Assembly (NCBI RefSeq): GCF_002736145.1
Contig: NZ_CP024160.1
Location: 248,001 to 312,000, forward strand
DNA from: Collinsella aerofaciens
Lineage (GTDB): Bacteria; Actinomycetota; Coriobacteriia; Coriobacteriales; Coriobacteriaceae
Length of the DNA stretch: 64,000 bases
Reading direction: 5' to 3'
Shown: positions 6,864 through 45,310 of the stretch, one piece after another
Numbering within the stretch: the stretch's first letter is position 1
How the letters are laid out: each line of letters begins with the position of its first letter
Translations under genes and position numbers: made by a program
The notes under the pieces: generated by a model
Database searches by the model: none
What the model was told of the DNA's origin: nothing
Seen by the model: only the letters and a program-made list of their open reading frames with translations

Positions 6864-7289
6864 CTAGGCTCGTCCGCGCAGTTCGATGTCTTGGATGTCG
6901 TCGAAGTCGATGGCGATGTCTTTGAGTTTGAGGAGCTTGAAGGCGGGGAGCGCCTCGTCGAGGATGCCGGTGCGGCTGCGATAGCCGTATGTATCGTAAT
7001 AGGTGACACGAATCAAGTCGCCACGTTTGAGGCCCTCGAGCTTTTTAGAAAGCACGAGGGCTTTTTCTTCCGTGAGCTCACGTTTTGGCTCGACGGTGAT
7101 TTCCTGCTTGCGCACGAGTTCGTAGTATCCCGTGAGGGCGGCAAAGGGCATAAACTGTGCGGCGCGGTTGGCGCGCACGGCACCGTTGGCAGTGAGGTTG
7201 GGGTCGGCGGCGCGGCGTCTACCCTCGGGGTCCGCCAAGCGCTCGAAGGCGGTCGGCGGGCGCACGGGCTGCTGCTTGGGTTTAGGCAC
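6864..7289 (-). CDS. YolD-like protein
   Basis: This 141-residue protein resembles the YolD-like family. It contains RAAQFMPFAALTGYYE, the family's typical NRAAQFxPFxAL pattern. I start it at the GTG at 7289 because GGAGG lies five bases upstream; a TTG four codons earlier has no site. It overlaps the end of the polymerase gene by 8 bp, so the two are translationally coupled. In Bacillus, yolD genes pair with Y-family polymerases (YqjW, UvrX), with unknown function. Confidence 0.85.
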   Translation of the reverse strand: MPKPKQQPVRPPTAFERLADPEGRRRAADPNLTANGAVRANRAAQFMPFAALTGYYELVRKQEITVEPKRELTEEKALVLSKKLEGLKRGDLIRVTYYDTYGYRSRTGILDEALPAFKLLKLKDIAIDFDDIQDIELRGRA

Positions 7290-8787
7290 GATGTCCTCCA
7301 ACTTGGTCGTTGCGTTCGCGCGCGGTGGCGCCGGCGGTAAAGCTTAATCCCTTGACGAGCGCGTTCTTGCCGTACTTGCCTTTCACGGCCAGGACGGCGC
7401 GCGCCAGGTCGCGCTCGCGCTTATCGGCCTCGATATCGCTGAACAGATCGATGGTGGCAAATTCCTCGGGCATGAGGTTGCCAAATTCCAGGTTGATGCG
7501 CTTGACCGGTCGTTTGGGATCGACCGTTTGTGCCCAAAGGTCATCGAAATACCCCATGATCTTCTTAAACGAATTAGTGCGCTCGGGCAGCTTGCGCGAG
7601 GCGTTGGAGTGCGCAAAGAGCGCGGCATAGCCACCACGCGGTTTGCCGCCGTGTTCGCCCACAAAGATGCCATCGATTGCCTGCGCTTCGCGCACCAGAC
7701 GACGCCTTTCGTCATCGCGCTGGACGGGCTTGGGAGCACGGGGCGCGAGCTCGGGGCCGGCGGTTGCGGTGGGTTCGATGCTCGATGTGCTCGAGCGCAA
7801 GTGCCCGCAGCCGTCTATATACTGCGCCGTGCCGCTGGCGTTGAGCCGGCGTATGTCGGCGCGCTCGCTTGCATAGCCCACAAAGAGCGAGATGCTGTCG
7901 CACACCACGTGCTTGTCGATCAAATCCAGCACGGCGGCATCGACCATTTCGCGCAAGACGGTGTAGGCCTGCTCGTAGGCATAGCCCTTCGAGAGCACCT
8001 GCCCCGTGGTGGTCGAGGTCGCTTGCGGGCGATAAGCTTGGATATCGGCGATGGTTGTCGGCTCGCGCCCGAAGGCATGGTCGATGAGATATTCGGCATT
8101 GACGCCGAGCTCGTCGTAAAGCAGGTTTTCGTCGAGCGCCGCGACGCCCATCAGATCGTAGACGCCGTATTTCTCGAGGCGGGCTGCCACGCCGGGACCG
8201 ATGCCCCAGACATCGGTGATGGGACGATGGGGCCAGATCTCCTTGCGAAAGGTCTCGTCGTCGAGTATGCCGATGCGGTTGGGTGCGTGCTTGGCGGTAA
8301 TGTCGAGCGCTACCTTGGCCTGGAATAGGTTGGGGCCGATGCCGACCGTCGCCGTGATGCCGGTGCGCGCGAGGACCTCGTCGCGCAGCGTGCAGGCGAA
8401 CCCTTCCGCATCTGTGTGATAGAGGTCCAGATAGGGCGTCACGTCGATAAAGCACTCATCGATGGAGTAGACGTGCACGTCCTGGGGGCTGACGTATTCC
8501 AGATAGATACCGTAGATTTTCGCCGACACCTCCATGTAATGCTGCATGCGCGGTACGGCCGTGATGTAGTCGATGCCATCGGGAATCTCAAATAGGCGGC
8601 AGCGGTTGTGAATCCCTAAGTCCTTCATAGCCTGTGTGATGGCGAGGCAGATGGTCGTGCGCCCGCGCGATTCGTCGGCAACGACCAGGTTGGTGGTGAG
8701 CGGATCGAGCCCACGGTCGACGCACTCGACGCTGGCATAAAACGTCTTGAGGTCGATGCAGATATAGGTGTGCTGCTCGTGCGCCAT
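7282..8787 (-). CDS. Y-family DNA polymerase (UvrX/DinB type), translesion synthesis
   Basis: This 501-residue polymerase copies across damaged DNA. It has the ImpB/MucB/SamB layout: an N-terminal catalytic Asp segment (ICIDLKTFYASVE), then YSIDECFIDVT with the paired acidic residues, the helix-hairpin-helix region (DVWGIGPGVAARLEKYGV), and a little-finger domain to about residue 400. The ATG at 8787 has an AAAGGA site. Partnership with YolD matches the UvrX/YqjW branch. Two LexA-like boxes overlap its promoter. Confidence 0.93.
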   Translation of the reverse strand: MAHEQHTYICIDLKTFYASVECVDRGLDPLTTNLVVADESRGRTTICLAITQAMKDLGIHNRCRLFEIPDGIDYITAVPRMQHYMEVSAKIYGIYLEYVSPQDVHVYSIDECFIDVTPYLDLYHTDAEGFACTLRDEVLARTGITATVGIGPNLFQAKVALDITAKHAPNRIGILDDETFRKEIWPHRPITDVWGIGPGVAARLEKYGVYDLMGVAALDENLLYDELGVNAEYLIDHAFGREPTTIADIQAYRPQATSTTTGQVLSKGYAYEQAYTVLREMVDAAVLDLIDKHVVCDSISLFVGYASERADIRRLNASGTAQYIDGCGHLRSSTSSIEPTATAGPELAPRAPKPVQRDDERRRLVREAQAIDGIFVGEHGGKPRGGYAALFAHSNASRKLPERTNSFKKIMGYFDDLWAQTVDPKRPVKRINLEFGNLMPEEFATIDLFSDIEADKRERDLARAVLAVKGKYGKNALVKGLSFTAGATARERNDQVGGHRA

Positions 8788-8801
8788 CCGTGTCCTTTCA
8801 T

Positions 8802-8832
8802 CAAACACATGTTCTTATCGAATACCTGTTCG
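8802..8832 (-). promoter_or_regulatory. Two LexA/DinR-like SOS boxes
   Basis: On the minus strand, 8832-8819 reads CGAACAGGTATTCG (13 of 14 symmetric positions fit CGAAC-N4-GTTCG) and 8815-8802 reads AGAACATGTGTTTG (two mismatches). Their centres are 17 bp apart. They lie between the -10 box and the polymerase start. Confidence 0.75.
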
Positions 8833-8861
8833 ATAATACCCGCTTGCACGGACACCGTCAA
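8833..8861 (-). promoter_or_regulatory. Sigma-70 promoter of the polymerase-yolD operon
   Basis: TTGACG (8861-8856) and TATTAT (8838-8833) on the minus strand are separated by exactly 17 bp. The LexA-like boxes begin one base downstream of the -10 box. Confidence 0.8.
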
Positions 8862-9011
8862 AATCTGTCTCTTTTTGGCAAGTATGGTCGTGCGGTTGCA
8901 TCGGGTTTTTAACGCAGCCCTAAAGAGCGCGAAACAGCTCGGAAAAGCTCGCTTCGTAGCATGGGCCTAATGATCGGTACCACCTACATGCACGGAAGGG
9001 TTGTGGAAACG

Positions 9012-9536
9012 ATGGTCAACTACGGGTTTGGTATGCCGACGCGCCTTGTTGCGGATGGAGACGTGGCTCGCTGGTGCGGGCGATTAGTCGCTCACTACGG
9101 CGGTACCAAGGCGTTGGTCGTGCTGGGCGGTGACAAACATACGCGTGATGAGCTTGTTTCGGCGGCACTCGGCTCGCTTGATCGAGCTCTGCTCGAGCGC
9201 GTGCTGTTTCGTTGCGGCTCGGTTGAGGGCGACGGGGGAGACGAGCTGATCGACGAAGCCGTGGCCCTGGCGACCGACGAAGGCGTGGACTTTGTCTTGG
9301 CGATTGGCGATGCCGATACTGCTGGCTTTGCACGCGAACTCGCGCGTCGCATGGCAGCGCTCGATGTCGGCGAAGACGGTTTTGTTCCCTACGGATGCAT
9401 CGTCTCCGAGGGAAAAGTGCCCGCCGTTGTGGGTGCCGGCGAGGTTCCCGTTTTCGCCATCATCGCGCCCGAACTGCTGGAGGGCATTGGGTCTCCTCTG
9501 CGTGAGTTGCTCGGCAGCGTGTGCGCCGCGGCCTAA
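9012..9536 (+). CDS. Single-domain remnant of an iron-containing alcohol dehydrogenase
   Basis: The 174 residues from the ATG at 9012 resemble the N-terminal NAD-binding half of Fe-ADH proteins: NYGFGMPTRLV at the start, then ALVVLGG and GVDFVLAIGDAD where the family has the GGGS loop. The GGGS loop is changed (GDAD) and the C-terminal helical domain with the iron-binding histidines is absent. Family members have about 380 residues. Earlier in-frame ATGs (8961) lack a ribosome site. It may be a decayed gene or a non-catalytic domain. Confidence 0.6.
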   Translation: MVNYGFGMPTRLVADGDVARWCGRLVAHYGGTKALVVLGGDKHTRDELVSAALGSLDRALLERVLFRCGSVEGDGGDELIDEAVALATDEGVDFVLAIGDADTAGFARELARRMAALDVGEDGFVPYGCIVSEGKVPAVVGAGEVPVFAIIAPELLEGIGSPLRELLGSVCAAA

Positions 9537-9587: not shown

Positions 9588-9607
9588 CCAAAATAAACCT
9601 GTCCCTT
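9588..9607. repeat. Intergenic repeat copy with AACCTGTCCC core
   Basis: These 20 bases match 45291-45310 (opposite strand) at 19 positions. The core also occurs in the paired repeats around 29700 and 30920. Confidence 0.6.
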
Positions 9608-9735
9608 TTTGGTCGGTTGCCGTTTGGGGGCCGATTGGCAACGCTCGCTGATTATAGTCTTGACCTGCGCTAGAATAGTGGCATCTGAATGTCCGGGCGC
9701 ATGGAGGCGTGCGCTCGTATGCTGAGGAGGACTCT

Positions 9736-45274: not shown

Positions 45275-45290
45275 CTTCCGACCTGTCAAT

Positions 45291-45310
45291 AAGGGACAGG
45301 TTAATTTTGG
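45291..45310. repeat. Intergenic repeat copy with AACCTGTCCC core (reverse)
   Basis: It is the reverse complement of 9588-9607 at 19 of 20 bases, and lies between the racemase stop and its terminator. Confidence 0.6.

Follow-up and report, generated by a model that had tools for sequence, protein, structure and literature searches.

A Y-family polymerase operon of Collinsella with a promoter putatively controlled by LexA and a PafBC-like regulator

Organization of the polymerase operon and its promoter

The window, by which the whole analysed stretch of 64,000 nucleotides is meant, carries on its minus strand an operon that opens with a Y-family DNA polymerase gene followed by a YolD-like partner. 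The named relatives that lie nearest are Collinsella, many of them C. aerofaciens. In the polymerase frame (scanned as 7282-8808), PF00817, PF11799 and PF11798 all exceeded their cut-offs, the protein matched PHROG 1268 ‘DNA polymerase’ (E 3e-73), and a homologue was found in 43 of 43 Collinsella genomes. The YolD-like protein of the window scored 12.8 bits against PF08863, whose cut-off is 27.5; this cut-off was passed by two of the six YolD-like homologues scanned, and one of these two, from a Collinsella, shares 57% identity with the window protein. The features of the locus are as follows.

6864..7301, minus strand: YolD-like partner gene, overlapping the end of the polymerase gene; its TTG start codon is uncertain
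7282..8787, minus strand: Y-family DNA polymerase (UvrX/UmuC-like), 501 aa, first gene of the operon
8787-8785, minus strand: ATG start codon of the polymerase
8802..8815 (read 8815-8802), minus strand: LexA-like box 2, AGAACATGTGTTTG, two mismatches to CGAACN4GTTCG
8819..8832 (read 8832-8819), minus strand: LexA-like box 1, CGAACAGGTATTCG, one mismatch of 10 to CGAACN4GTTCG
8833..8838 (read 8838-8833), minus strand: –10 element, exact letters TATTAT
8850..8854, minus strand: –26 element TGTCC, RecA-NDp/PafBC-like, 11 nt ahead of the –10
8856..8861 (read 8861-8856), minus strand: –35 element, exact letters TTGACG

The promoter thus reads TTGACG-GTGTCCGTGCAAGCGGG-TATTAT-CGAACAGGTATTCG-ATA-AGAACATGTGTTTG, with a spacer (GTGTCCGTGCAAGCGGG) of 17 bp, box 1 directly adjoining the –10, and the two boxes lying 17 bp apart from start to start with a 3-bp gap between them. 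The sequence-only reading had described an ideal promoter followed by two LexA-like boxes at this distance, and both the hexamers with their 17-bp spacing and the pair of boxes were recovered letter by letter on the minus strand. Its account of the promoter as ideal and LexA-controlled is supported as far as these elements go and is incomplete in that the spacer also contains the conserved –26 element.

A 191-aa frame that diverges from the operon (8961-9536, plus strand) matches an iron-containing alcohol dehydrogenase domain over the domain's N-terminal part alone. The window contains three copies of a dispersed repeat, CCAAAAAGGGACAGGTTT and its variants, versus 0.03 expected (9595-9612 and 8861-8878 on the minus strand, 45286-45303 on the plus strand), and the copy at 8861-8878, with two mismatches, borders the upstream edge of the polymerase –35, as is also seen in near relatives. 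The repeat was rejected as the source of the promoter, since divergent species, judged by eye, show TTTGAC and TGTCC without it.

A conserved –26 element in the polymerase promoter

PafBC is a sensor of single-stranded DNA that uses the mycobacterial RecA-NDp promoters, which are not known to have a functional –35. The consensus reported for these RecA-independent promoters is tTGTCRgtg-8nt-TannnT (PMC5656591), and according to PMC11804915 it is PafB that engages the –26 motif. The polymerase promoter, written as TGTCCGTG-CAAGCGGG-TATTAT, has the same spacing between TGTC and TAnnnT, and the promoters of divergent Collinsella share TGTCC within the –35/–10 spacer. The pattern YGTCC-N11-TANNNT was found at the polymerase in 41 of 43 Collinsella (the exceptions being L058 and L067) and in L093, the only one of three other Coriobacteriia with a –26 element at this gene, L094 and L095 being without it. 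When the spacer following YRTCC was varied from 5 to 17 nt, 41/43 genomes matched at 11 nt and at most 1/43 at every other length. The pattern TGTC-N12-TANNNT was present in 39/43 Collinsella, versus 16 of 2150 mononucleotide shuffles of the polymerase upstream regions, and in none of the 57 upstream regions of polymerase homologues from outside Coriobacteriia.

Two properties separate this element from its mycobacterial counterpart. In this genome and in all others with the YGTCC form, TGTC is followed by C instead of the consensus R (A or G), and a TTGAC sequence at a comparable distance from TANNNT accompanies the element in 39/43 Collinsella. The –35 is absent in the remaining four (L063, L064, L070 and L072), which keep the –26 element, as does L093, also without TTGAC. 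Because the base after TGTC differs and a –35 coexists, the element is classified here as a PafBC/RecA-NDp-like variant and not as a proven member.

Recurrence of the –26/–10 element before repair genes

The genome contains 11 matches to TGTCCRNNC-N7-TANNNT versus three for the reversed pattern, and across 11 genomes TGTCCRNRC-N7-TANNNT gave 117 matches versus 14 in the reversed control, an 8-fold excess for a pattern drawn partly from the polymerase and pcrA promoters, which account for 8 and 6 of these 117 matches. In the pcrA promoter itself, TGTC-N12-TANNNT was found in 18 of 24 genomes, and YRTCY-N11-TANNNT, a pattern widened after reading the six misses, in 23 of 24.

The genes downstream of the matches were surveyed at 107 loci in the 11 genomes. 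A large AddB-like protein followed the element in 10 of the 11; its N-terminal part had no match in Pfam or NCBIfam, and the protein in full, taken from G016, gave a ‘probable DNA repair protein’ match below the cut-off. The gene order in G016 is the AddB-like gene, then a PcrA/AddA/RecB-like helicase gene (below cut-offs), then dnaE. Other genes lying downstream of the element were counted as follows.

Exonuclease VII large subunit (xseA): 8
DUF2130/HIRAN cluster: 7
Kinase-like protein: 5
DnaE: 3
Tex: 3
C69 peptidase: 3
YhcG/DUF1016-type nuclease cluster: 3
PolA: 2
UvrA, PriA and exonuclease III: single cases

Some of the matches fall within coding sequence, and the downstream genes lie partly outside repair; a match in G016 (L241), probably inside priA, was left uncounted as a promoter. 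One strong match, TGTCCGCACGCGCGGGTATACT (L166, G000:C1:2101357-2101378), stands 84 nt ahead of a 354-aa frame that received no identity from the family search.

These distributions bear on whether the polymerase has an ordinary SOS promoter, with LexA as its sole control and TGTCC as a functionless sequence inherited within the spacer. The near-consensus σA promoter, the sufficiency of LexA boxes for SOS control, and the retention by L094 and L095 of a box at the polymerase without a –26 element, despite their PafC homologue, all agree with such an arrangement. A functionless spacer sequence is, however, difficult to reconcile with a TGTCC that stays exactly 11 nt from the –10 and outlives the –35 in four Collinsella and in L093, nor would it explain the recurrence of the element at pcrA and other repair genes, and we therefore regard exclusive control by LexA as unlikely, at perhaps one chance in five.

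PafB- and PafC-like proteins of Collinsella

Three WYL matches were found in the genome, two of them to adjacent genes whose frames overlap by 14 bp and a third, weaker one. The first of the adjacent proteins matched PafB of a solved structure (9fnd chain X, E 1.7e-8) and the second matched PafC of another (7p5x chain AX, E 3.8e-16), with PF19187 (HTH_PafC) scoring below its cut-off on the PafC-like protein. A PafC homologue was present in 43/43 Collinsella, with G032, 72% complete, yielding no more than a fragment, and in 3/3 other Coriobacteriia, where two of the matches were weak; none was found in three Firmicutes genomes (0/3).

The –26 element could be real and nevertheless be read by another factor, such as a ClgR-like activator or another WYL protein. 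ClgR was reported by one study to recognise the mycobacterial P1 motif (cited in PMC5656591), the third WYL match offers a further candidate, and the base after TGTC departs from the mycobacterial consensus. On the other side stand the description of PafB as the protein that engages the –26 motif (PMC11804915) and the adjacency of PafB- and PafC-like genes in this genome, and a different reader appears improbable to us.

LexA boxes at the polymerase, lexA and recA

The sequence-only reading proposed to look for the motif at lexA and recA, and named a different motif at lexA itself as the outcome that would speak against it. The sole match in the genome to the LexA DNA-binding family PF01726, at 711741, is a full LexA, with TIGR00498, PF01726 and PF00717 all over their cut-offs. 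Its promoter carries three boxes of the same type, AGAACGAATGTTCG, CGAACAGTTGTTCC and CGAACATTTGTTTG, at 28-bp steps (L007, G000:C1:711642-711711), and recA carries a perfect box, CGAACAGCCGTTCG, between TTGACC and TATTAT. Since lexA and recA of this genome share the motif, a different LexA motif does not apply, and the placement of the polymerase operon in a LexA regulon of the CGAACN4GTTCG type is supported at the sequence level.

The lexA arrangement extends across the group. Among 25 lexA promoters (22 from Collinsella and three from other Coriobacteriia; L007 and L300-L322 belong to this set), all had a box of at most one mismatch, 23 had at least two boxes, and 23 had a triple array of boxes of at most two mismatches at 27-29 bp steps. 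The presence of boxes in front of lexA agrees with LexA autoregulation as it is known; the three-box array at these steps is the difference, and we know of no triple array of this type at lexA.

At the polymerase, where boxes were counted in up to 200 bp upstream per genome, one of at most one mismatch occurred in 43/43 Collinsella, this genome included, and two of at most two mismatches in 35/43. The start-to-start distance in these 35 was 17 bp in 22 genomes, 12-16 bp in 12 and 25 bp in one. In the 22 nearest genomes (94-100% protein identity), box 1 has fixed half-sites and a variable core; these genomes are not independent, and the weight of the conservation argument is carried by the 21 divergent Collinsella. 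Box 2 shares its GTTTG half with the third lexA box. Outside Coriobacteriia, 3 of 57 polymerase homologues had a box of at most one mismatch, a count subject to the possibility that these organisms use another LexA motif and to the placing of gene starts by alignment.

By within-window statistics alone, the pair is weakly unusual. The window contains 42 boxes of at most two mismatches versus 41.4 expected and four of at most one mismatch versus 3.3, with one pair 12-30 bp apart having a member of at most one mismatch versus 0.12 expected; 6 of 60 dinucleotide shuffles of the window held at least one comparable pair. The boxes are credible because of their position abutting the –10 of the Y-polymerase and their conservation in relatives. 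Chance palindromes of a G+C-rich genome, although compatible with box numbers that match the shuffles, were rejected on conservation as scarcely conceivable, given a box in every Collinsella with fixed half-sites, a variable core and variable spacing, and the same motif at lexA and recA.

LexA-like boxes also precede an MgsA/RarA-like gene, a GyrI-like gene and a RuvA-containing frame. The box at the GyrI-like gene, a perfect CGAACAGCTGTTCG (L013, G000:C1:1346300-1346313), lies 69 bp ahead of it and marks a possible SOS target. A gene for an RNA polymerase beta subunit has another box, with one mismatch, about 180 bp upstream (L011, G000:C1:1213338-1213351). The genome has 26 exact GAACN4GTTC sites, about 14 of which a rough ORF criterion appears to place within reading frames, and for the intergenic ones the downstream genes were named by family only. 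Neither any of these 26 sites nor any looser site among the matches listed lies upstream of Pol IV (dinB, 791511).

Proposed dual control of the polymerase operon

Taken together, the promoter elements and the encoded regulators suggest, with a probability of roughly 0.7, that the operon of this UvrX/YolD-type translesion polymerase has a damage-inducible promoter under two controls, LexA and a PafBC-like regulator. LexA dimers on the two boxes would lie across the start site and the beginning of the transcript and keep the operon off, box 1 extending from about –6 to +8 if transcription begins 7 nt after the –10. RecA filaments would then induce LexA self-cleavage and thereby lift repression. 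The PafBC-like WYL heterodimer, whose genes lie elsewhere in the genome, would be activated by single-stranded DNA and contact TGTCC at about –28 to –24, aiding σA RNA polymerase to start from TATTAT. Full expression, presumably of a single transcript, would need both controls, and the –35 may permit firing independent of PafBC; as a good –35 is present at the polymerase in 39/43 Collinsella, PafBC may not be needed.

Somewhat less confidently, we favour a broader reading in which Collinsella and near relatives possess a second, PafBC-like damage regulon, marked by TGTCC-N11-TAnnnT before AddAB-like genes, xseA, pcrA, dnaE, polA and uvrA. The UvrX/YolD mutasome would be wired both to this regulon and to LexA on one –10, forming an AND gate of two sensors of single-stranded DNA.

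Comparison with known systems

In Firmicutes, YolD-linked polymerases are known to be controlled by LexA, yqjW and yqjX being SOS-induced in B. subtilis, and the UvrX-like group has been reported in Actinobacteria as well (PMC6511836); uvrX is also listed in a gut SOS meta-regulon (PMC3998124). The operon described here resembles yqjW-yqjX and uvrX-yolD of Firmicutes in its Y-family polymerase adjoining a YolD-family gene and in its LexA sites, and differs from them in the conserved –26 element of the same promoter and in an actinobacterial host with PafB- and PafC-like proteins.

In mycobacteria, some genes (recA, uvrA and uvrC) are reported to be under both PafBC and LexA, with a RecA-NDp promoter and an SOS box, and RecA-NDp promoters are said to reach other Actinobacteria (PMC8223512, PMC5656591), a Streptomyces case among them (PMC5087735); the structure of PafBC has been described as well (PMC6789036). 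The likeness to this system comprises the TGTC/TAnnnT spacing, the presence of both PafB and PafC, the repair-gene targets and the SOS box at some of these genes. The differences are the C that replaces R after TGTC, the –35 also present at the polymerase, and a Y-polymerase/YolD pair as the target. Moreover, recA of mycobacteria is served by two promoters, P1 for PafBC and P2 for LexA (PMC11804915), whereas here the –10 that goes with the –26 element also adjoins the LexA box.

A literature search that took in few subscription papers found neither PafBC together with Coriobacteri* or Collinsella nor Collinsella together with LexA and translesion. The LexA part of the promoter is ordinary, and a PafBC-like regulon in Coriobacteriia would be the new part as far as that literature goes. 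With these boxes, a gut commensal genus has an SOS operator that is now defined and that occurs as a conserved triple array at lexA; its mutagenic polymerase is predicted to answer to two damage alarms. If this is true, Coriobacteriia share the PafBC/–26 promoter logic of mycobacteria, and specific target genes can be predicted for it. The operon also indicates a way in which a polymerase/YolD cassette, familiar chiefly from Firmicutes, may come under actinobacterial regulation.

Extent of LexA boxes among –26/–10 loci

Dual control would not be general among these promoters, because a LexA box of at most one mismatch was found in the 500 bp at pcrA in none of the 24 promoters. Such a box lies near the –26/–10 element at 13 of the 107 loci, including uvrA, priA and a YneA-like gene (below its cut-off). 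At four loci (L252, L254, L263 and L276), the LexA-like box CGAACNNNNGTCCG overlaps the –26 element, and LexA and the PafBC-like protein could compete there for the same bases.
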